Assembly: GCF_000397205.1 (NCBI RefSeq)
Contig: NC_021237.1
Location: forward strand, 2,543,001-2,607,000
Source: Pseudomonas protegens CHA0
GTDB taxonomy: Bacteria > Pseudomonadota > Gammaproteobacteria > Pseudomonadales > Pseudomonadaceae
DNA: 64,000 nt
Direction: 5' to 3'
A program made the position numbers and the translations under genes. Position 1 is the first letter of the stretch; the number at the start of each line of letters is the position of its first letter. This document shows, one piece after another, positions 7,962 through 21,669 of the stretch. Below the pieces are notes generated by a model. That model worked only from the letters and a program-made list of their open reading frames with translations, did not search any database and was not told where the DNA came from.

Positions 7962-8064
7962 TGTTGGTCTTCTCGAAAGTGTCTTCGGGAAGCACGCAGG
8001 AGAGGGTATCGGCCACGGGCACGCGACCATACCGGCCCATGCCCGCCCACCGCAGGATTGCCAA

Positions 8065-8252
8065 ACAGACGTCACAGGCCGGTCTCCGGGCTTGCGAGTC
8101 TGGCGGCATTCGCCTTCCCATACCTTGGGTACAGTGGCCTGTTGAATGCAGCACTCGCTTACCGTTGCGGGGGCAGCACCGGACTTGCCCGAAAAGGGGC
8201 GCACCGGTTTCCCGTTTCACCTCCTGCACGGCGGCAGGAGGCACCTGAAACT
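8065..8252 (-). promoter_or_regulatory. cobalamin riboswitch upstream of btuB
   Basis: On the minus strand, the leader between about 8252 and 8065 holds the conserved cobalamin aptamer parts in order. They are GGTGCCTCCTGCCG near the 5' end, GAAACCGGTGCG, the core GCTGCCCCCGCAACGGTAAG, and the B12 box AAGCCCGGAGACCGGCCTG at 8075-8093. About 110 bases then separate the box from the btuB start. Cobalamin binding would shut off btuB and the two genes behind it. The edges are approximate. Confidence 0.93.
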
Positions 8253-8336
8253 GGGCGGCATATGAACATCCGCCCCGGCGTTCGTCAACGTTGCGCCTGC
8301 CGCCAGGTGTTACCGGATTCATCGCCCTGACGCCTC

Positions 8337-8484
8337 TGTAGCCGCTGCCGAGCCCGCGAGGCTGCGCAAAGGCCTGCAGGGCCTTGCTTGGCAGTCTCAT
8401 GTCGAGCGCCTCAGCGGTCTTGAGATTTCGCGCCCCTGCGGGCCGTGCTTCCGAACGCGGCCCGAGCCTGCGGCTGCGGCTACA
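8337..8484. repeat. family B intergenic repeat, copy 1
   Basis: An element of about 148 bp with inverted ends: TGTAGCCGCTGCCGAGC at the left and the complement of that end (GCGGCTGCGGCTACA) at the right. Internal blocks GAGGCTGCGCAAAGGCC and GGCCGTGC..CGAACGCGGCCCGAGCC recur in the other copies. It lies between the btuB leader and an aruG-like gene, whose TAG stop (8480-8482, minus strand) is inside the right end. Confidence 0.8.
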
Positions 8485-9553
8485 GGAGCAGGGCGCTTTG
8501 CGGGGCCAGGTGCCGCTGTGCGTGCAGGGCCGTGCGTGACTCGCAGGCCAGCAGCGGCACCGCCCGTACCGAGTCGCCCGGCTGCAGTTGCAGGCGCTTG
8601 GCGGTCAGCCGGTCCACCAGCAGGCAACCCGAAACCAGGCGCCCGGGGGCGGCGGTGATGCGGCAGCTTTCCAGGCGCCGGTTGTGGATCAGCCACACCG
8701 GCGCCTGTGCGTCCGGAGTGCCCACCAGCAGGGGCAGGGTCTGGCTTTCGCGCACGCTGCGGATCTTCGCCACCTCGGCCTCGATCAGCGGCCCGCCATC
8801 GAAGATGTCGATGCAGCCCTGATGGCTGAAGCCTTCGTCGCGCAGGATGCTCACCGCCTGTTCGGTGCTGGCGTGGGCCTGGCCGATGGCGGCCTGCGCC
8901 TGGGGGCTGAGCAGGCAGGTGTACAGCGGCTGGCGCGGCATCAGTTCGGCGATGAAGGATTTGCTGCCGTGGCTGGACAGGCGATTGGCCTGCTGGAAAC
9001 CCATCTTGAAGAAGTGCCGCCCCAGGCTGTCCCAGAACGGCGAGCGGCCCTGGCTGTCGAGCTGGCCGCGCAGTTCGGCCACCAGCTTGTCGCCGAACAG
9101 CCGGGGGAATTCGGCGACAAACAGCAGGCGCGCCGTGGACAGCAGGCGGCCGGTGTAGCCCTGGCGGTGATCGCGGCGCAGGAACAGCGAGCACAGCAGC
9201 GACTGCCCGGTCATCTCGTTGCACAGGAACAGGGTCGGGATGTGCTTTTCGATGCCCAGCACCGGGGCGCTGCCGTGGGTGGTGCCGACCCGGTAGTTGT
9301 AGCAGGGCTCGCGCAGGCCGATGGCGCCGCTCAGGCCGCAGACCCCGATCACCTGCTGCTCGTCATCCTCCATGACGAACAGGTAGTCGGCATCGGCCCG
9401 CTCCACCTGGTTGGCGAAGGCTCGCTGCGCCCAGCGCACCCGATGGGCCAGGCGCTCGGGGTCGGTGGACAGGTTGTTCAGTTCGCGACAGCTGCCTTCG
9501 AGCAGGCTCAAGACCGCCGGCAGATCGGTGACGCGGATCGGACGGACGATCAT
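8480..9553 (-). CDS. arginine/ornithine N-succinyltransferase, beta (AruG)-like paralog
   Basis: A 357-residue AstA-superfamily acyltransferase, from MIVRPIRVTDLPAVL. It is closest to the AruG type: the block ADYLFVMEDDE, the GLREPCYNYRVG block, GRSPFWDSLGRHFFKMGF and FIAELMPRQPLYTC are all of that kind. The family transfers succinyl from succinyl-CoA to the alpha-amino group of arginine or ornithine. It sits apart from any aruCDB genes and is last in a cluster led by an RpiR regulator, so it is likely a specialised second copy. It starts 49 bp after the alpha-like gene. Its TAG stop is supplied by a family B repeat end. The true substrate is unknown. Confidence 0.85.
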   Translation of the reverse strand: MIVRPIRVTDLPAVLSLLEGSCRELNNLSTDPERLAHRVRWAQRAFANQVERADADYLFVMEDDEQQVIGVCGLSGAIGLREPCYNYRVGTTHGSAPVLGIEKHIPTLFLCNEMTGQSLLCSLFLRRDHRQGYTGRLLSTARLLFVAEFPRLFGDKLVAELRGQLDSQGRSPFWDSLGRHFFKMGFQQANRLSSHGSKSFIAELMPRQPLYTCLLSPQAQAAIGQAHASTEQAVSILRDEGFSHQGCIDIFDGGPLIEAEVAKIRSVRESQTLPLLVGTPDAQAPVWLIHNRRLESCRITAAPGRLVSGCLLVDRLTAKRLQLQPGDSVRAVPLLACESRTALHAQRHLAPQSALLL

Positions 9554-9602
9554 TGGCGGGCTCCTGGCAATGACGCCGGGCAGGGGGGCAACAGGGGCCG
9601 GT

Positions 9603-10619
9603 TCATAAGGCAACGCTCCGTACCGGCTCGCCCGGCGCCAGTTGCAGGGCCTGGAACATGGCCGGGTCGAGGCCGATTTCAGCGCCCGGGGCGGTGTCCA
9701 GCGCCGCGACTATGGCGCGAAAGCCCTGCAGCCGCTCGTTGCTCAGCAGCCACTGCTGGCCCTGGCCGCTCTGGGGGCTGGGGTAGCTGGTGGCGACCCG
9801 GCTCTGGGCGATCGAGCGCAGTTGGTGGCTGCGCCCCTGCAGGGTCGGCCCGGCATCGAACAGGTCGACGTACTGGGTCGGCGCGAAGCCTTCGTCGATC
9901 AGGATCTGGCAGGCCTCCCGGGCATCCGGGTGAACCTGGCCGATGCAGTCCTGGGCCGCCTGCGCCAGCATCGGGATGTACAGCGGATACTGGGGCATCA
10001 GTTCGGCGAGAAAGCCGCGGCCCTGCAGGGCGCACAGGCGCTCGGCCTCGACATAGGGCAGGTCGAAGAAGTGCTGGCCCACGGCTTGCCAGAACGGCGA
10101 CTCGCCGTTGGCGTCGCTGTAGCCGACGATCTCGCTGATGCAGCTGTCGGCGAAGCGCTGGGGGTGGGCGGCGATGAACAGCAACCGCCCGCGGGAGGTG
10201 AGCTGGGCCAGTGGCGTACCGCCCAGCGGCGGGTCGACATGGAAGCTGCGCAGCAGGGTCTGTTCGCTGAGGTCGTGGCACAGCGACAGGGTGGGCACCC
10301 CGTGCTGGATGTTCAGCTCCCGGGAACTGCTGATGAACGGGCGGTTGCGCAGGCTGTAGAACGGGCTGGCAAAACCGGCAGTGGCGAGGATGTCCGAGCA
10401 GCCGCGCAACTGGCCGCTGTCGAGGTCCTCGAGCACCAGGAAATAGTTCTCCGGGCCCTGGCTGGCCTCGCTCTTGGCGAAGGAGGCCTGGGAATCGAGG
10501 ATCTTGTCCCGCAGGCAGGTTTCGTCAGCCACCAGGGAGGTGACGCCCAGCAGGCGTTCGCGGGCCAGGCGCCGCAGTTGGGGCAGATCGGATAACGCCA
10601 CCGGACGCAAGGCCAGCAT
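9603..10619 (-). CDS. arginine/ornithine N-succinyltransferase, alpha (AruF)-like paralog
   Basis: A 338-residue protein of the same superfamily as the next gene but of AruF type: MLALRPVALSDLPQL, ENYFLVLEDL, ASPFYSLRNRPF, ISEIVGYSDANGESPFWQ, FLAELMPQYPLYIP and SIAQSR at the end of the catalytic core. Together with the beta-like gene it should form the heteromeric enzyme. About 50 C-terminal residues beyond the AruF core (from SYPSPQSGQG) resemble the tail region of AruG and are not usual for AruF as I know it. It lies 172 bp downstream of the APC permease. This is presumably not the housekeeping AST-pathway copy, because no AruC, AruD, AruB or AruE homolog is nearby. Confidence 0.85.
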   Translation of the reverse strand: MLALRPVALSDLPQLRRLARERLLGVTSLVADETCLRDKILDSQASFAKSEASQGPENYFLVLEDLDSGQLRGCSDILATAGFASPFYSLRNRPFISSSRELNIQHGVPTLSLCHDLSEQTLLRSFHVDPPLGGTPLAQLTSRGRLLFIAAHPQRFADSCISEIVGYSDANGESPFWQAVGQHFFDLPYVEAERLCALQGRGFLAELMPQYPLYIPMLAQAAQDCIGQVHPDAREACQILIDEGFAPTQYVDLFDAGPTLQGRSHQLRSIAQSRVATSYPSPQSGQGQQWLLSNERLQGFRAIVAALDTAPGAEIGLDPAMFQALQLAPGEPVRSVAL

Positions 10620-10791
10620 GGGTGTACTCCTGTATCAAGGGCCGCTTGCCCCGGGGGGCAGGCACTGGCCAGACATCACTGTCGGTTACCACGCAGTTCC
10701 ACGGCCGCGGCATCCGGCGGCCAGTCCCCGGGCCGCTCTTGCTGGCAGCGCCGGGATTGGCGCGACGCCCTGGGGCGCCGCGCGGGTGCAA

Positions 10792-12141
10792 CTAGTGCTT
10801 GAGCGGGTCGGGCAGGGCGGCGCCGCTGCCCAGCTTGTTCAGCAGGAACAGGTAGACCAGCCCGGCAAGGATCCAGATGGCGCCGAGTTTCTGCGCATCC
10901 ACGCCCATGTTGTACATGATGGCGCTGACGATCACGAAGCCGATTACCGGGCAGATCAGGTGGCGCACCACCTGGCCGGACTTCTGCCGGCGCCAGTAGA
11001 AATTGATCACGGTGATGTGCAGCAGCATGAAGCCGCTCAGGGCGCCGAAGTTGACCAGGGAGGTCAGGGTGTCCACCGAGTTGATGAACAGGTAGCAGAT
11101 CAGCAGCGACAGCACCGCCACCAGGTAGATGCTGATGTGCGGGGTGTTGTGCTTGGGGTGGACCTTGGCCAGCACCTTAGGCAGCTTGCCGTCGCGGGCC
11201 ATGCCGAACAGCAGGCGCGATACCGCGGCCTGCGAGGTGATGGCCACCGCCACGCCCCAGGCCAGCGCGGTGGCCACTCCGGTGAGGGTCGCCAGCCAGC
11301 TGCCGGCGGCCAGTTCGGCGATTTCATAGAAGGCGGTGTCGGCGGACTTGAAGCCCATGCCGGCGGCCAGGTCGGTGGCGATCCAGGTCTGTACCACGAA
11401 GATCGCGCCCATCACCACCAGGGTGATCAGCGCGGCGCGGCCGACGCTGCGGCCCGGGTCGCCCTTGACCTCTTCGGCGAGCGTGGAGATGGCATCGAAG
11501 CCGAGGAACGACAGCACCGCAATCGAGACGCCCTGCATCAGCATGCCGAAGTGGAAGTTCTCCGGGTTGTACAGCGGCGCCAGGGTCAGCTGGCCGTTGC
11601 CGGCGCCACCGTGCAGGGCATTCCAGGCGTAGAACAGGAAGATCCCCAGGACCGCCAGTTGCGCCAGCAGGAACAGGATGTTCATCCGCGCGGTGAAGGT
11701 GATGCCGCGCAGGTTGACGAAGGTGGCGCTGACCAGGAACGCCAGGATGAAGCCGACCTTGGGCACTTCCGGGTACAGGTGGTTGAGCGCCATGGCCGCG
11801 TAGACGTAGAGCAGCGGCGGGATCAGCAGGTAGTCCAGGAGCATCAGCCAGCCGGCAAGAAAGCCCACATGGGGGTTGAGGCCGCGCTGGGCGTAGGAAT
11901 ACACCGAACCGGCGATGGGAAAGGCGCGGGCCATGGCGCCGTAGCTCAGGGCGGTGAAGACCATCGCCACCATGCCGATGATGTAGGCCAGGGGCACCAT
12001 GCCCGGGGCTTCCTGGTTGACGTAGCCGTAGACCCCGAACGGGGCGATGGGAATCATGAAAATCATCCCGTAGACCACCAGGTCACGCAGGCTCAGCCCG
12101 CGCTTGAGTTCCTGTTTGTAGCCGAATTCTTCAATCTCCAT
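10792..12141 (-). CDS. APC-family amino acid/amine permease
   Basis: A 449-residue inner-membrane transporter with about 12 hydrophobic helices. The N-terminal motif GLSLRDLVVYGMIFMIPIAP and the FLGFDAISTLAEE block are typical of the amino acid-polyamine-organocation family; putrescine importers of the PuuP group look similar. The ATG at 12141 has AAGGAG 9 bp upstream; an in-frame start at 12252 was rejected. It stands between the formylglutamate-hydrolase-like gene and the succinyltransferase pair, so it probably imports the substrate of the cluster. The ligand is not evident from sequence. Confidence 0.88.
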   Translation of the reverse strand: MEIEEFGYKQELKRGLSLRDLVVYGMIFMIPIAPFGVYGYVNQEAPGMVPLAYIIGMVAMVFTALSYGAMARAFPIAGSVYSYAQRGLNPHVGFLAGWLMLLDYLLIPPLLYVYAAMALNHLYPEVPKVGFILAFLVSATFVNLRGITFTARMNILFLLAQLAVLGIFLFYAWNALHGGAGNGQLTLAPLYNPENFHFGMLMQGVSIAVLSFLGFDAISTLAEEVKGDPGRSVGRAALITLVVMGAIFVVQTWIATDLAAGMGFKSADTAFYEIAELAAGSWLATLTGVATALAWGVAVAITSQAAVSRLLFGMARDGKLPKVLAKVHPKHNTPHISIYLVAVLSLLICYLFINSVDTLTSLVNFGALSGFMLLHITVINFYWRRQKSGQVVRHLICPVIGFVIVSAIMYNMGVDAQKLGAIWILAGLVYLFLLNKLGSGAALPDPLKH

Positions 12142-12356
12142 GAAGCCGTTCTCCTTGAGCCTGTGTAAGTGGGTAAAGGCGGGGCCCTGCGGGTCGTCAT
12201 TGACACCTCGGGCCGCGCTTTCGTGTTTGAACCTGGCAGGGTTTAAAGACACACCACAGCGGTTTTTCTAGTTGTTGTACCGGTCCTGCAAACAGCGTTT
12301 TGGCGCGCCGGGTGAGTCCTTCGGGGCGCGCCGGTGAAACCTTCCTCTCGCCGCGG
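12142..12356. other. intercistronic gap inside the RpiR cluster
   Basis: A gap of 215 bp without a gene. It holds a short palindrome-rich stretch around 12296-12330 (GGCGCGCCGGGTG..GGGGCGCGCCGGTG) that could be a processing or attenuation hairpin for the downstream permease. I see no clear promoter. Confidence 0.3.
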
Positions 12357-13118
12357 CTACAGCAGCGGCGCCAGTGTATCGCTCCAGTGCTGCACCGCTT
12401 CAGGGGTACGCAGCAGATCGTTGCGCACCTCGATCAATACCGACGCCAGGCCACGGGCGTCGCCGTGCACCGGCACGGTCATGTCGCTCAACGGATCGAT
12501 CTCGTAGGGCTGGTTGCCCGCCACCTTGATCGGCAGCCTCCACAGCCCTTCGAGGATCCGCGCCGCGTAGTCGGTGGCGCTGCCATACAGCACGCCGATT
12601 TCCAGCGCGCGCGGCTGCCCGTAGTAGACCGGGGTGAAGCTGTGGATCCCCACCACCCGCACTTCACGGCCCTGGGCCAGGCGCCGGTCGATGATCCTTT
12701 GCAGGCGCTGGTGAAACGGCGTGAACAGCTGCTGGCGGCGGTACTCGCGAGTGGCCTCGTCCAGCTGCTGGTTGCCCGGCACCTGATAGATCTCGCTTTG
12801 CAGCGGGATGCTGTCGGGGGCGTGGCGCGGCCGGTTGAGGTCGATCAGCAGGCGCGAGTAATTGGCCGCGATCAGGGTCGCGCCCAGGGCCTGGGACAGG
12901 CTTTGGGCCAGTTCCAGGGCGCCCGGGTCCCAGGCGATGTGTTCGCGGGCCGCCAGCGGGTCCAGGCCCAGGTCGTGCAGGGCCGGTGGAATGTAGTGGC
13001 TGGCGTGTTCGCACACCAGAATCAGCGGGTGCTCGGAGTCTTCACGGATCAGGCGGTAGGCCGGCTCGGTGTAGAACCCCAGCTCGGCGGATTTAGTACA
13101 GGTGTCCATAGTGCTCAC
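12357..13118 (-). CDS. N-formylglutamate amidohydrolase-like hydrolase
   Basis: About 253 residues. Shows the family's N-terminal motif LILVCEHASHYIPP (residues 32-45), then HIAWDPGA (60-67), RLLIDLNRP and VGIHSFTPVY, which carry the usual metal and substrate contacts. HutG-type enzymes hydrolyse N-formylglutamate to formate and glutamate, but this group is broad and no hut genes are present. The GTG at 13118 overlaps the ligase gene by 26 bp; an ATG at 13109 is the alternative start. The position in the cluster suggests it releases an acyl or formyl group from a glutamate-like intermediate. The reaction is an inference. Confidence 0.82.
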   Translation of the reverse strand: MSTMDTCTKSAELGFYTEPAYRLIREDSEHPLILVCEHASHYIPPALHDLGLDPLAAREHIAWDPGALELAQSLSQALGATLIAANYSRLLIDLNRPRHAPDSIPLQSEIYQVPGNQQLDEATREYRRQQLFTPFHQRLQRIIDRRLAQGREVRVVGIHSFTPVYYGQPRALEIGVLYGSATDYAARILEGLWRLPIKVAGNQPYEIDPLSDMTVPVHGDARGLASVLIEVRNDLLRTPEAVQHWSDTLAPLL

Positions 13119-14448
13119 AGAGTTGGGCAGCGGTCAGGTGCTCGGTCAGGGACACTTCCTTTTGTTTGACGGCGAAGTAGGTGGCCAGCAGGTCCTGGGG
13201 CAGGAACTGCAGCAGTTCAGTGTTGCCGCGCAGGCATTCCAGGGCCTGGGGCAGGGAGCCCGGCAGCGGCACGATGCCACTGGCCAGGCGTTGCTCGGCG
13301 CTCAGGTCCGAGGGTGCCTTGTCGGTCACCGCATTGAGCACCCGTTGCTGTTCGAGGCCCAGGCGCCCGGCCATCAGGATGACCGCCATGGCCAGGTGCG
13401 GCGAGGCGGTGGCATCCAGGGCGCGGAATTCCAGGTTGTACTGCGGCGCCACCGGCTTGCCGCCCAGGCTCAGGGTCGGGCAGATGCGCAGCGAGGCTTC
13501 GCGGTTGCGCAGGCCCAGGCAGGCGTAGGAGGCGCTCCAGTGATGGGGCTGCAGGCGCTGGTAGGAAATCGGCGTCGGCGCGGTGAAGGCGCACAGCGCC
13601 GGCAGGTGCCTGAGCACCCCGGCGGCCCAGTGCTGGCCCAGGCTCGACAGGTCGTCGCCACTCACCGCGTGGGGGTCGTAGAGCAGTGGCTCGCCGTCCA
13701 GGTTTTGCAGACTCAGGTGCAGGTGCACCCCGTTGCACACCGCGTCGTCGGCAGTCTTGGGCGCGAAGCTGACCCGGTGCCCCAGTTGCCGGGCGATTTC
13801 CCGGGTGATCTCGCGCACGTTCACCGCCCGGTCGGCAGCGGCCAGGCCCTGGGTCGGCCGGCAGGTGATCTCGTACTGCTGCTTGCCGTATTCGGGGAGG
13901 AACATTTCCGGTTCGGCGCCGGCGGCCCGCAACGCCGCCAGCAGCCAGCCACCGAAGGCCGCGCCCTGGCGCTGGGCTTCCAGGGAGAAGGCCAGGTGTT
14001 CGCGCTGGCCGGTGCCGGTGTCGAGGTTGAATTCATGCTCGAAGGCCGCGGTGATCTGGATGCCCAGCTCGCGGTAGCGCTCGATTTCCTTGCGCAGCAG
14101 GGTGCGCGGGCAGGCCGCCCAGGGCGTGCCGTCGGTCTCGCAGATGTCGGCGTGGATGAAATCCAGCGGCGCCGCGCTGGCATCCGGCCCGGCGCCGACA
14201 CTGACCCGGCTGTCCAGGTCGGGGATCAGTCGCAGGTCGCCATAGGCGCCCCAGGGGTTGTCCTCGGCGATCAGGTCCTGGGGCGTCAGCGCGCTGTTGG
14301 CCGGCACCCAGCCGCAGCCGCCGACCTTGTAGCGCTCCAGTTCGTCGCTGGGAAAGGAGCGGCCACGGGTGACGCCGATCAGGTCGGTGGTGACGATGCT
14401 GGTCATGGCCACCGGGGTCAGGGCCTCGATGCCCTGGCCGCGGCTCAT
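13093..14448 (-). CDS. glutamine-synthetase-like ligase (gamma-glutamylamide synthetase group)
   Basis: A 451-residue class I GS fold. The active-site landmarks are present: AAFEHEFNL (Glu137/Glu139), KQQYEITCRP (Glu193), NGVHLHLSL (His244), the GLRNREASLRI arginine loop, and YNLEFRALDATASPHLAMA with the late glutamate. The tyrosine-adenylylation region of the housekeeping enzyme is not obvious. Proteins like this join glutamate to amines (PauA/PuuA-type) or act on related acids. ATG at 14448 overlaps the stop of the cysteine hydrolase (ATGA), so translation is coupled; the 510-residue extension lies inside that gene and was rejected. In this cluster it presumably activates or traps the imported amine. 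Confidence 0.85.
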   Translation of the reverse strand: MSRGQGIEALTPVAMTSIVTTDLIGVTRGRSFPSDELERYKVGGCGWVPANSALTPQDLIAEDNPWGAYGDLRLIPDLDSRVSVGAGPDASAAPLDFIHADICETDGTPWAACPRTLLRKEIERYRELGIQITAAFEHEFNLDTGTGQREHLAFSLEAQRQGAAFGGWLLAALRAAGAEPEMFLPEYGKQQYEITCRPTQGLAAADRAVNVREITREIARQLGHRVSFAPKTADDAVCNGVHLHLSLQNLDGEPLLYDPHAVSGDDLSSLGQHWAAGVLRHLPALCAFTAPTPISYQRLQPHHWSASYACLGLRNREASLRICPTLSLGGKPVAPQYNLEFRALDATASPHLAMAVILMAGRLGLEQQRVLNAVTDKAPSDLSAEQRLASGIVPLPGSLPQALECLRGNTELLQFLPQDLLATYFAVKQKEVSLTEHLTAAQLCEHYGHLY

Positions 14449-15089
14449 CCGCGGATCTCCCGCAGGCGGCCGAGCACGGTGTCGGTGTCGGTGATCCAGC
14501 AGTAGCCCTTGATTGCGTTGAGGCAGGCCTGGTGCCGGGTATCGCCGTAGGTGGCGCAGGCATCTTCCACCAGGGTCACCAGGTAGCCGCGGTCGGCGGC
14601 GTCGCGCACGGCCATGTCCACGCACTGGTCGGTGACGATCCCGGCGATGATCAGGTGGCGGGTTTCCAGGTTGCGCAGCACGTAGTCGATGTTGGTGGAG
14701 TTGAACACCCCGGAGGAGGTCTTGGGCAGCACGATCTCGTTTTCAACCGGTTCGAGCTCGGCAATGATCGCCGCCTGGGGGCTGCCCTTGGGCAGGTGCA
14801 TGTCCGACAGCTTGTGGTCCAGGGAGCGGTCACGGCCATCGGCGGTCAGGCTTTCGATAATGGTGTGCAGCACGTTCTGCCGCGCCTCGCGCACCGCCGC
14901 CAGCAGCCGTTGCTGGTTGGGGATCACCCGCTCTCGTGCGCGCTTGAGAAAGGCCTCGCCCTCGGGCCCTTGCAGGTGCGGGTCGAACTGCGGTTCAAGC
15001 CACGCCCGCTGCATGTCCACCAGCAGCAGGGCGGTGTGGTCGACGACGAAGGGCAGGTCCCGGGGCGAACGGTGGGGCAGGCTGAACAT
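14445..15089 (-). CDS. isochorismatase-family cysteine hydrolase
   Basis: A 214-residue amidohydrolase of the cysteine-hydrolase superfamily. The catalytic triad is Asp25 (LLLVDMQRAW), Lys123 (VLPKTSSG) and Cys156 (GIVTDQCVDMAVRDA). Known relatives hydrolyse nicotinamide, biuret, maleamate or carbamoyl amides; true isochorismatase is unlikely without siderophore genes nearby. It begins 2 bp after the RpiR gene ends and overlaps the ligase by 4 bp, so all three are one transcript. The likely job is to split an amide or carbamoyl group in the pathway of the cluster. Confidence 0.85.
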   Translation of the reverse strand: MFSLPHRSPRDLPFVVDHTALLLVDMQRAWLEPQFDPHLQGPEGEAFLKRARERVIPNQQRLLAAVREARQNVLHTIIESLTADGRDRSLDHKLSDMHLPKGSPQAAIIAELEPVENEIVLPKTSSGVFNSTNIDYVLRNLETRHLIIAGIVTDQCVDMAVRDAADRGYLVTLVEDACATYGDTRHQACLNAIKGYCWITDTDTVLGRLREIRG

Positions 15090-15091
15090 CC

Positions 15092-15946
15092 TTATTTTTC
15101 CTCCAGCACATGGGTAGCAAATTCCGCCCGCAGGGCATCGATGCCCTCCAGGCGTTGATCAAGATGAGGGCTGCGCGGGGTCAGGCAGGCGACCAGCGCC
15201 TCGACCTGGGCCAGCGCCGGCACCAGGGTGTCGAATGGCGACAAGGATTCCACCGGTGCACTGATGACCAGGTCCGCCAGCTCCCGCAGCGGCGAGGCAT
15301 AGATATCGGTGAACAGCACCACCCGGGCGTTGCGTGCCTTGACCGCACTGGCCACGCGCATGGCCTGGGACTGGTAGCGGCGGTAGTCGAACAGCAGCAC
15401 CAGGTCCTGGCGCTGGACATCGAACAGGCGGTCCGGCAGTTGGGCGTTGTCGTCAAGGAAGAAACAGCCCGGGCGCATCAGCCGCAGGTGGTTGAACAGG
15501 TAGAGGGCGAGGAAGCTGCTGAAGCGGCCGCCGAAGCAGTACACCGAATGCCGGCTGTCCAGCAGCCAGTCCATGAGCACGCGGATGTCTTCGGGCTGGG
15601 TCAGGGCCTGGGTGTCCTGCAGTACGCGCTGGCTGTCGGCCAGGTAGCGGCCCCAGGTATCGCCCTGGGCCACTTGCGAACGCGGGCGCAGCAGGGTGCT
15701 GGGGGAGCGCAGGCGGTCATCCATGTCACTGAGCAGGGCTTCCTGGAATTCGCCGTAGCCGCTGAAACCGAGCTTCTTCACCAGGCGCACGATGGTCGGA
15801 TCGCTGACCCCGGCGTGTTCCGCCAGGCGTGACATCGGCCCCAGCCCATTGCGCGGGTAGTGATCGAGCAGGGCCCGCACGACCTTGCGCTCGGAGGGCG
15901 TGAGGTCGAGGGCGGGGTCGGTGATCAGGTCTCTGAGAGAGGGCAT
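15092..15946 (-). CDS. RpiR-family transcriptional regulator, first gene of the catabolic cluster
   Basis: A 284-residue protein with an N-terminal HTH_6 domain (LTPSERKVVRALLDHYPRNG, then AEHAGVSDPTIVRLVKKLGF) and a C-terminal SIS domain from about residue 120 (VYCFGGRFSSFLALY, DLVLLFDYRRY, VVLFTDIYASPLRELAD). SIS domains in this family usually sense phosphosugars, but the amino-acid linked members sense other ligands. ATG at 15946 with AAGG 8 bp upstream. It leads the operon and so is probably autoregulated through the AT-rich palindrome just upstream. The regulated genes are likely the six behind it. Confidence 0.88.
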   Translation of the reverse strand: MPSLRDLITDPALDLTPSERKVVRALLDHYPRNGLGPMSRLAEHAGVSDPTIVRLVKKLGFSGYGEFQEALLSDMDDRLRSPSTLLRPRSQVAQGDTWGRYLADSQRVLQDTQALTQPEDIRVLMDWLLDSRHSVYCFGGRFSSFLALYLFNHLRLMRPGCFFLDDNAQLPDRLFDVQRQDLVLLFDYRRYQSQAMRVASAVKARNARVVLFTDIYASPLRELADLVISAPVESLSPFDTLVPALAQVEALVACLTPRSPHLDQRLEGIDALRAEFATHVLEEK

Positions 15947-15976
15947 CGGGGTGCCTTGGAAAGTGATGTCGTTTTT

Positions 15977-15996
15977 ATTTCATAAAATGGCGAAAT
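15977..15996. promoter_or_regulatory. candidate RpiR operator/promoter region
   Basis: An inverted repeat ATTTC-N10-GAAAT in a conspicuously AT-rich stretch (about 15970-16040) directly upstream of the rpiR start. It is the only such AT-rich island near the cluster, so operator and promoter are likely here. Assignment is by position and symmetry only. Confidence 0.4.
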
Positions 15997-16300
15997 GGAT
16001 ATTTATGTAATAGACGCTACATGTCTAGTGAATTTTCCTCTGATATCAAATTGCCCTGAAATGGGGCGGTTTCAGGTGGGAATCTGTTGTTGGCGGGGCG
16101 GGAAGCCACGGTGCGGGACGCAGGGGAGCGATCGCAACAGGGTCTGGCTTACGCCGAGCAGGCCGAATACAGTGGCGCGACCGCACCGGACAGGCACCGG
16201 CGTGCTGTTTTGCAATGAACCTTGGAGGCGGTTGCAGCAAAGATGTTGCATCTGCCCGGCCCGTGTAGGTTTGCCAATCGATAACGCCAGAGTAAACACC

Positions 16301-17067: not shown

Positions 17068-17829
17068 ATGAAAACCCTCCTGGTGATCGGCATCGGCGCC
17101 GGCAACCCCGACTACATCACGATCCAGGCGATCAAGGCGCTGAACCGCAGCGACGTGGTGTTCCTCATGGACAAGGGGCCGAGCAAGGATTCCCTGATCG
17201 ACCTGCGGCGCGAGCTGTGCGAGCGCTACCTCACCGAGCGGCCCTTTCGTTACGTCGAGGCGCAGAACCCCGAGCGCGAGCGCGGCGACGTGGACTACCA
17301 GGCCAGTGTGCAGACCCTGAACCGCGACAAGCAGCAGGTCTTCGAGCGGCTGATCAACCAGGAACTGGCGGACGGTGAAACCGGCGCTTTTCTGGCCTGG
17401 GGCGATCCGGCGCTGTACGACAGCACCCTGCGCATCCTGCAGCAGATCCTGGCCAGCGGTACGGCGTCGTTCGAGTACGAAGTGATCCCCGGCGTCACCA
17501 GTGTCCAGGCCCTGACGGCCCGGCACAAAGTGCCGCTGAACCGCATTGGCCGCTCCGTGGAAATCACCACCGGACGCCGCCTGGCAGCGGGGCAGGCCGG
17601 CTCCGCCGACAGCCTGGTGGTGATGCTCGACGCCGAGGATTCCTACCGCCACCTGCGCAACCAGGGCCTGGACATCTACTGGGGGGCCTACCTGGGCACC
17701 GCGGATGAAATCCTCATCAGCGGCCCCTTGGACCAGGTGGCCGATGAAATCCGCCGTGTACGCCTGCAGGCCCGCCAGACCCATGGCTGGATCATGGACA
17801 CCTACCTGCTGCGCAAACCCCAGGACTGA
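17068..17829 (+). CDS. cobF: precorrin-6A synthase (deacetylating) CobF
   Basis: SAM-dependent methyltransferase of the aerobic cobalamin pathway; it methylates C1 of precorrin-5 and removes the acetyl group. 253 residues, the usual length. The tetrapyrrole methylase N-terminus VIGIGAGNPDYITIQAIKAL, the AFLAWGDPALYDSTLRIL block and the VIPGVTSVQALTA block are all present. ATG at 17068 starts the family alignment. Other cob genes are not in the window, so cobF is separated from the main cluster here. No cobalamin riboswitch is visible upstream. Cytosolic. Confidence 0.93.
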   Translation: MKTLLVIGIGAGNPDYITIQAIKALNRSDVVFLMDKGPSKDSLIDLRRELCERYLTERPFRYVEAQNPERERGDVDYQASVQTLNRDKQQVFERLINQELADGETGAFLAWGDPALYDSTLRILQQILASGTASFEYEVIPGVTSVQALTARHKVPLNRIGRSVEITTGRRLAAGQAGSADSLVVMLDAEDSYRHLRNQGLDIYWGAYLGTADEILISGPLDQVADEIRRVRLQARQTHGWIMDTYLLRKPQD

Positions 17830-19673: not shown

Positions 19674-20453
19674 ATGAACAAGTTTGCGCTGTTCGGTGCC
19701 CTGGCACTGTCGCTGTTTTCCTTTACCGCTTCGGCCGACGAGGCCAAGCCGATCCGTATCGGTATCGAAGCCGGCTACCCGCCGTTCTCGATGAAGACCC
19801 CCGACGGCAAGCTCACCGGTTTCGATGTCGACCTGGGCAACGCCCTGTGCGAGCAGATGCAGGCCAAGTGCACCTGGGTCGAGCAGGAGTTCGACGGCCT
19901 GATCCCGGCGCTGAAGGTGAAGAAGATCGACGCCATCCTGTCGTCCATGACCATCACCGACGACCGCAAGAAGAACGTCGATTTCACCATCAAGTACTAC
20001 CACACCCCGGCGCGCTTCGTGATGAAGGCCGGCACCAGCATCAAGGACCCGCTGACCGAGCTCAAGGGCAAGAAAGTCGGTGTGCTGCGGGCCAGTACCC
20101 ATGACCGCTTCGCCACCGAAGTGCTGGTGCCGGCGGGTATCGACCTGGTGCGCTACGGCTCCCAGCAGGAAGCCAACCTGGACATGGTCTCCGGCCGCGT
20201 CGACGCGCTGCTGGCGGATTCGGTGAACCTCGACGATGGCTTCCTGAAAACCGACGCCGGCAAGGGCTTCGCCTTCGTGGGCCCGGAGTACAACGATCCG
20301 AAATACTTCGGCGGCGGTGCCGGCATTGCCGTGCGCAAGGGGGATCAGGAACTGGCCGGGAAATTCAACAAGGCCATCACCGAGATCCGTGCCAACGGCA
20401 AGTACAAGCAAGTGCAGGACAAGTACTTCGATTTCGACGTCTACGGCGAGTAA
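19674..20453 (+). CDS. periplasmic basic-amino-acid binding protein (ArgT/AotJ family)
   Basis: A 259-residue family 3 solute-binding protein. A signal peptide ([21 protein letters not shown]) is followed by [20 protein letters not shown], the usual N-lobe start, then [13 protein letters not shown] and a [14 protein letters not shown] segment. The sequence resembles lysine/arginine/ornithine binders. No permease or ATPase gene follows, and a strong terminator lies 13 bp downstream, so it is an orphan binding protein sharing a transporter encoded elsewhere. A CTGGAG ribosome site lies 9 bp before the ATG. Confidence 0.88.
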
Positions 20454-20465
20454 GCCCGGACGTTG

Positions 20466-20503
20466 AAAAAGGTGGTTGCCGGGGGCCGGCAGCCACCTTT
20501 TTT
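20466..20503 (+). terminator. rho-independent terminator after the binding protein
   Basis: A near-perfect stem AAAAAGGTGGTTGCC / GGCAGCCACCTTTTTT with one wobble and a short G/C loop, running into a T tract. Because the arms are A- and T-flanked it may work in both directions. Confidence 0.9.
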
Positions 20504-20556
20504 GTGCGCCACTGTTTTATTCTGCGCCACGCCTTTTTCTGATCTCCGGAGTTGCC

Positions 20557-21669
20557 ATGCAACGCATCGACCATTCCTTGCCCTGGGGCCACCTGGGCAC
20601 CCAGCGCCAGCTCAGTGTGTTCCGCTTTGGCAGCGGCCCGCGCAAGGTGTACATCCAGGCCAGCCTGCACGCCGACGAACTGCCCGGCATGCGCACTGCC
20701 TGGGAGCTCAAGCAGCGCCTGGCGCAGCTGGAGAACCATGGGCGCCTGCAGGCAGTGGTCGAACTGGTGCCGGTGGCCAATCCCATCGGCCTCGACCAGC
20801 AGGTGCAGGGCAGCCACCTGGGGCGTTTCGAGCTGGGCAGCGGCAAGAATTTCAATCGCGCCTTCGTCGAGCTCAGCGGCCCGGTGGGCGACTTGATCGG
20901 CAAGCAACTGGGGGACGACGCCACGGCCAATATCGCCCTGATCCGCCGGGCCATGGTCCAGGTGCTGGATGAGCTGCCAGCGGCTGATTCGCAGCTGCAA
21001 GCCCTGCATCGCTTGCTGTTGCGCCATGCCTGCGACGCCGACATCACCCTCGACCTGCATTGCGATTTCGAAGCGGCGATCCACCTCTATGCCTTGCCCC
21101 AGCACTGGCCTCGCTGGCAATCCCTGGCGGCGCGGCTCAAGGCCGGGGTGGCGCTGTTGTGCGAAGACTCCGGCGGCAGCTCTTTCGATGAATCCTGTTC
21201 CGCGCCCTGGCTGCGCCTGGCCCGGGACTTTCCGCGGGCGGCGATTCCCCCGGCAAACCTGGCCGCCACCCTGGAGCTGGGCAGCATGGGCGACACCCGG
21301 GTGCAGCAGGCCCGGGCCAACTGCGAAGCCATCCTGGGGTTTCTCGCCGAACAGGGGCTGATCAGCGGCGAGTGGCCGGCCGCTGCGCAGCAGTGCTGTG
21401 AAGGCATGCCCTTCGAAGGCACCCAGTACCTGTTCGCCCCCCACCATGGCGTGGTCAGTTTCCTGCGCGATGCCGGAGAGTGGGTGGAGCGTGGCGATGC
21501 GTTGTTCGAAGTGGTGGACCCCTTGAGCGATCGCGTCAGCACCGTGTGTGCCGGCACCAGCGGCGTGCTCTTTGCCCTGGACCGTGGGCGCTACACCCAG
21601 CCGGGCATCTGGCTGGCCAAGGTGGCCGGCCGCGAGGCGATTCGTGAAGGCAAGCTGATCAACGACTGA
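20557..21669 (+). CDS. succinylglutamate desuccinylase/aspartoacylase-family zinc hydrolase
   Basis: A 370-residue member of the M14-like acylase family. The zinc site is visible: His38 and Glu41 in SLHADELPG, and His168 in TLDLHCD. A C-terminal beta-rich part (GVVSFLRDAGEWVERGDALFEVVDP) is typical of the AstE/AspA fold. It hydrolyses an N-acyl amino acid; the acyl group and amino acid are not determined. ATG at 20557 is the start of similarity; the upstream in-frame extension runs through the terminator and was rejected. It follows an arginine-type binding protein, which hints at acylated basic amino acids as substrates. Confidence 0.85.
   Translation: MQRIDHSLPWGHLGTQRQLSVFRFGSGPRKVYIQASLHADELPGMRTAWELKQRLAQLENHGRLQAVVELVPVANPIGLDQQVQGSHLGRFELGSGKNFNRAFVELSGPVGDLIGKQLGDDATANIALIRRAMVQVLDELPAADSQLQALHRLLLRHACDADITLDLHCDFEAAIHLYALPQHWPRWQSLAARLKAGVALLCEDSGGSSFDESCSAPWLRLARDFPRAAIPPANLAATLELGSMGDTRVQQARANCEAILGFLAEQGLISGEWPAAAQQCCEGMPFEGTQYLFAPHHGVVSFLRDAGEWVERGDALFEVVDPLSDRVSTVCAGTSGVLFALDRGRYTQPGIWLAKVAGREAIREGKLIND

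Follow-up and report, generated by a model that had tools for sequence, protein, structure and literature searches.

A seven-gene cluster of Pseudomonas protegens CHA0 is, we conclude with moderate confidence, two modules lying side by side: a five-gene core operon running from an RpiR-type regulator to an APC-family permease, which would serve an amine or amide nitrogen source, and a pair of succinyltransferase subunits, AruF2 and AruG2. The cluster lies in a 64,000-nt stretch of contig NC_021237.1 (positions 2,543,001-2,607,000), here called the window, whose coordinates are used throughout; the host genome is one contig of 6,867,980 bases. Seven open reading frames (ORFs), all on the minus strand, occupy 8480-15946 in the order RpiR, cysteine hydrolase, glutamine synthetase (GS)-like ligase, N-formylglutamate-amidohydrolase-family protein (FGase), APC permease, AruF-like and AruG-like subunits. 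This is the order listed in an earlier reading made from the letters alone (the sequence-only reading), and all seven proteins were assigned by Pfam with scores above curated cut-offs. The cluster edge placed by that reading at 15996 moves to the RpiR start at 15946. Its description of the first four genes as tightly coupled holds: a 2-bp gap separates RpiR and cysteine hydrolase, the hydrolase and ligase overlap by 4 bp, and the ligase and FGase overlap by the 26 bp originally given if FGase starts at GTG, but by 17 bp if it starts at ATG. The gaps between FGase and APC (215 bp) and between APC and AruF (172 bp) are wide, and tight coupling is therefore confined to genes 1 to 4.

The two modules are separable in both directions. 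The core occurs without AruFG in other gammaproteobacteria (of the same family, of the same order and P. aeruginosa-like) and in alphaproteobacteria, and no AruF/AruG match was found by scripts or annotation at any of the 27 loci read outside the genus. Within the genus, 149 genomes were scored at thresholds of E 1e-100 for the ligase and E 1e-140 for AruG2 (canonical AruG falls at about 1e-130 to 1e-135): 36 carry both, three the ligase only, nine AruG2 only and 101 neither. Only canonical-type AruG matches occur in the ligase-only trio and in three genomes at greater distance, save for one further 54% match in G073, whose core occupies the same position without an adjoining AruFG. All nine AruG2-only genomes have AruF2 directly upstream, and in a tree of 45 joined pairs the pair-only genomes fall together in a single clade (SH-aLRT 95) nested among core-bearing ones, several supporting branches lying between 83 and 90. 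In each of the nine, with the core-bearing locus L052 as the only reference, the sequence leading up to AruF2 aligns first to the RpiR promoter and opening codons and then switches to the final 115-173 bases ahead of AruF2. This scar joins the start of RpiR to the region upstream of AruF2, and therefore about 4.9 kb would have been lost; the pair-only genomes probably arose by one deletion of the core. The pair is still under purifying selection in them (omega 0.13). Since the pair is retained after core loss, and the core is found elsewhere without the pair, a dedicated seven-gene route is doubtful, and the single pathway ending in succinylation for the arginine succinyltransferase (AST) route, as proposed from sequence alone, is not supported. 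The pair is most readily understood as a diverged succinyltransferase which has its site, and perhaps its niche, in common with the core and does not depend on it.

By sequence comparison the ligase (13093-14448, 451 aa) is an ortholog of P. aeruginosa PA5508 (PauA7): its best PDB match is the PA5508 structure 4hpp, with 618.9 bits over 443 residues (9-451), the next PDB match reaching 115 bits, and it is the sole PA5508-type ortholog in the host genome, where none of the six other GS homologs exceeds 64.5 bits. The GS ligand residues that had been judged intact are present, namely the six metal ligands E137, E139, E186, E193, H242 and E340, together with R298, R321 and R342, and the acids of the GS catalytic ammonium site are replaced by W304 and G46. 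The excerpted description of PauA7 (PMC6529630) places W296 and G40 at the corresponding positions and prints the sixth ligand as E322; our alignment sets E340 opposite chain residue 332. Because the ammonium-site acids of GS are missing, the ligase most likely gamma-glutamylates an amine. Orthology and residue pattern place it among gamma-glutamyl organic amine synthetases of the PauA7/GoaS kind, and it falls short of the equivalogs for gamma-glutamylputrescine synthetase (NF045547, 246.3 vs 650 bits) and glutamine synthetase (TIGR00653, 158.9 vs 429.15 bits). The metal ligands and W304 are invariant at all of the 60 loci compared (38 in the genus and 22 of the 27 outside it), which were chosen for having the core enzymes; L153, L169, L174, L175 and L176 were left out for missing one enzyme. 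In Pseudomonas sp. ANT_J12 the ligase match comes in two pieces, reflecting a frameshift or a sequencing error.

The cysteine hydrolase (14445-15089, 214 aa) is a member of the isochorismatase-like cysteine hydrolases by its PF00857 domain (123.5 bits) and its Asp-Lys-Cys triad. Asp25, Lys123 and Cys156, which the sequence-only reading had picked out as an intact triad, are present, and across the same 60 loci no variation is seen in the triad, in the six metal ligands or in FGase H35, H57, D61, H156, H215 and E227. In an alignment to 6xix and 6xj4, Ser stands at the Cys position in 6xj4. Fold family and triad are common to the triuret and biuret hydrolases and RutB, but the window protein is far from reaching their equivalogs (84.6 vs 370 and 72.7 vs 378 bits). 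FGase (12357-13109, 250 aa from ATG, with a GTG alternative at 13118) is a member of the wider PF05013 family (141.8 bits) and matches 2odf with 180 bits; it reaches 40.3 against the 278.75 bits of the HutG equivalog TIGR02017, and a HutG-type histidine route was rejected because this lies far below the cut-off.

On the two-module reading, the APC permease (10792-12141, 449 aa from ATG, ORF open to 12252; PF13520/PF00324), which is 81-99% identical across 59 fetched Pseudomonas loci, would import an amine or amide compound, and the ligase would use ATP to attach glutamate to the compound's amine. An amide or ureido bond of the compound would be cut by the cysteine hydrolase, and the FGase-family metallohydrolase would take glutamate (or a different acyl group) off the product. 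RpiR would repress the promoter from which it is itself expressed, binding of an inducer lifting this repression. AruF2-AruG2, under their own leader, would succinylate an arginine- or ornithine-type amino acid, leaving the canonical AruC, D, B and E, which are encoded elsewhere, to process the product to completion. We infer the order of these steps, the bonds cut, the regulation and both substrates; the broader proposal of a catabolic gene set for a nitrogen compound is supported.

The core extends well outside Pseudomonas. A ligase at E 1e-45 or better was found in 19 of 398 genomes sampled from the phylum, and 19 loci outside the genus were fetched by ligase similarity from 17 genomes (two genomes give two each). 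Ligase, cysteine hydrolase and FGase stand together in 15 of these 19, the other four being without one or two of them, and in seven of the eight annotated plasmid loci read, among which Klebsiella matches (45 of 112 records) do not figure. At the eighth, from Terrarubrum flagellatum (L153:8041-10302), an RpiR/SIS regulator and the ligase are in one 753-codon frame. The transporter varies, being APC in three gammaproteobacterial relatives and a branched-chain- or PotD-type ABC system at most other loci, and a class III aminotransferase or ArgE/DapE deacylase gene often adjoins the core outside the genus. In eight relatives, omega for the core genes is 0.04-0.12.

The closest known counterpart is the PA5508 region of P. 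aeruginosa, with which the window has the ligase ortholog in common; the five-gene order occurs in same-family and P. aeruginosa-like loci. Unlike in the window, the AruFG pair is not next door to PA5508. PA5506-PA5510 of that species are five genes of this kind. The sequence-only reading knew of no described pathway with this gene set, which stands in so far as none of the open-access papers searched describes the core as a pathway, but not for the genes, five of which are known in P. aeruginosa. Sources available in part list PA5506-PA5509 as co-regulated and PA5510 as a transporter. The cluster also resembles the Puu/Pau systems for putrescine and polyamines in having a GS-like ligase and an APC-type permease, with amine capture by glutamate (PMC9397018), but is without the PuuB oxidase, PuuC dehydrogenase and PuuD hydrolase. 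Polyamine catabolism of the Puu/Pau type was rejected as its specific role because the equivalog is missed and, according to the accessible part of PMC6478659, polyamines do not induce PA5508. The structure of PA5508 has been solved, and the literature, as far as its excerpts go, assigns it no in vivo role. The conservation of its companions (cysteine hydrolase, FGase and RpiR) across two classes narrows the question of PA5508 to one testable pathway.

Sequence comparison further indicates that AruF2 (9603-10619, 338 aa, arginine/ornithine succinyltransferase alpha-like) and AruG2 (8480-9553 from ATG, ORF open to 9613, 357 aa, arginine succinyltransferase beta-like) are a distinct paralog clade of arginine succinyltransferase. 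The genome holds five AstA-family genes, comprising the canonical pair, AruG3 and the window pair, and the window pair is thus a second copy, as had been supposed. These paralogs link the cluster to the AST pathway aruCFGDBE, from which it differs in being without C, D, B and E, none of which lies within 8480-15946, again as previously noted. The canonical pair sits inside a complete aruC-F-G-D-B-E set at 5.17-5.18 Mb (L177), and identity to it is 53-58% (52.8% for AruF2, 57.7% for AruG2). Both window subunits pass the TIGR03243 subfamily cut-off of 284.35 (346.3 and 385.4) and miss the equivalogs that the canonical pair clears at 557.2 and 522.7 bits, AruF2 with 373.6 vs 458.8 (TIGR03245) and AruG2 just short with 389.0 vs 391 (TIGR03244). 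In a tree of 177 sequences AruF2 and AruG2 each form one clade, separated from the canonical subunits by 33 and 22 differences, respectively, that are fixed at the thresholds used. The Asn of an LTGNS motif is present in 58 of 58 canonical copies and in none of 118 second copies. A distant AstA (L220), the sole match to the search expression among six distant AstA loci, carries Val there, and this Asn was therefore demoted from specificity residue to a clade difference only. The remaining family member, AruG3 (L178:7726-9653, at about 3.44 Mb of the genome), passes TIGR03244 and directly adjoins a CtlX citrulline hydrolase gene, its neighbourhood also holding an AsnC regulator and amino-acid ABC genes; this locus possibly encodes a citrulline-to-succinylornithine route.

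A conserved leader precedes AruF2 (10620-10692, minus strand), with an invariant 10-base motif CGACAGTGAT, a small GAC/GTC stem, a covarying hairpin and a ribosome-binding site. Across 37 aligned sequences 93.7% of cells in the hairpin are paired, and 39 cells carry changes in both partners, where shuffling gives 10 on average and none of 500 shuffles reaches as high a count; this signal drops once the pairing partners are slid. A covariance model of the leader matched once in the genome, at AruF2 only, and a link to the canonical aru genes was rejected on that ground. The short leader pattern gave 14 near matches vs 3 in the control, and no Rfam family matches the hairpin.

The main competing account is of one seven-gene pathway, in which the core would release an arginine- or ornithine-like amino acid for AruF2-AruG2 to succinylate for the AST route; such a pathway is possible in core-bearing species, and as a general explanation we consider it rather unlikely. 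Several observations favour it and weigh against two separate modules. The sequence-only reading had made its proposal depend on the seven genes co-occurring in related strains, and this they usually do in a group of soil Pseudomonas, order and spacing being kept in 55 of the 59 Pseudomonas loci (at least three of the contigs appear in duplicate, having been drawn from two collections). Likewise, of the 39 ligase-bearing genomes in the genus, 36 have AruG2, a strong skew (Fisher p 1.4e-22, uncorrected for kinship) consistent with one pathway. The pair shows a higher omega in genomes without the core than in eight core-bearing neighbours (AruF 0.131 vs 0.106; AruG 0.127 vs 0.082), which may indicate some loosened constraint after core loss. 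When relaxed selection was tested, the shift was small and partly common to a neighbouring gene: omega of AraC moves similarly (0.084 vs 0.056), that of two other neighbours hardly, and the CobI value is invalid, its query being out of frame. Genes for a binding protein like AotJ and for an AotO-like protein lie 5 kb away, and AruG3 adjoins a citrulline hydrolase gene in the same genome, so that a succinyltransferase beside a feeder enzyme has precedent. The proposed chemistry of the core is also open to objection in that the FGase family is not known to have deglutamylase activity. The available passages of PMC6478659 and PMC6529630 report a preference of PA5508 for bulky or aromatic amines, which does not bear out the arginine-like core substrate of the sequence-only reading; the activity described is in vitro, with no in vivo substrate found in such passages, and this counts against our assignment too. 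Set against a single pathway are the retention of the pair after core loss in nine of 45 genomes, the stand-alone core of P. aeruginosa-like, same-order and alphaproteobacterial loci, and the separate leader of AruF2.

An extension of the two-module reading, to which we give only slight credence, is that RpiR, cysteine hydrolase, PA5508-type ligase and FGase constitute a widespread and undescribed gamma-glutamyl catabolic pathway of Pseudomonadota. Here FGase would act as a deglutamylase replacing PuuD, the transporter would be exchangeable (APC in gammaproteobacteria, branched-chain- or PotD-type ABC in alphaproteobacteria), and in the P. fluorescens complex the product would also be routed through a neofunctionalised AruFG with a non-arginine substrate. 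It is improbable that the arrangement is simply an old, vertically inherited neighbourhood in which the pair is a redundant copy of the canonical arginine/ornithine succinyltransferase, acting on the same substrate but controlled differently, for although the flanking AraC/FtrA-like and AotJ/AotO-like genes are also kept in many loci and AruG2 is still a subfamily member, both subunits form single clades with fixed differences from the canonical ones, and the second copies never have the LTGNS Asn, itself not universal. Collinearity in a well-populated genus need not imply one pathway, and the nine species that kept the pair after core deletion provide a natural knock-out comparison.

The RpiR-type regulator (15092-15946, 284 aa) has HTH_6 and SIS domains (PF01418 and PF01380, above cut-off) and passed no NCBIfam equivalog. 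Upstream of it lies a dyad, TGTAG-N6-TTACAT (16005-16021, minus strand), the sole exact TGTAGNNNNNNTTACAT match in the window, which is visible upstream in relatives and is a candidate operator that RpiR may bind. No second exact dyad of this type occurs before AruF2 or APC, and the pattern with N7 gave no match. An A-rich stretch ahead of APC (about 12261-12278, minus strand) is repeated in relatives. It resembles an Hfq/Crc target and would presumably fit the Crc effect reported on PA5510. In the excerpts available, the Crc regulon, by a post-transcriptional measure, includes PA5508 and PA5510 (PMC6235884), PA5506-PA5509 are over-expressed with several plasmids in PAO1 (PMC6246594), and an nrdR mutant shows changes in PA5507 and PA5509 (PMC4409342).

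Cobalamin genes flank the cluster, with a cobalamin riboswitch (8060-8263, minus strand, 120.4 bits) ahead of a TonB-dependent receptor gene on one side and CobF (17068-17829, confirmed in frame) on the other; in Nitratireductor thuwali cobF likewise adjoins the cluster, perhaps by chance. Further along the window (19674-21669, plus strand), a gene for an arginine/lysine-type binding protein is followed by one for an AstE/AspA-domain protein, which resembles one in the canonical aot-aru region and lies near the cluster in many relatives.

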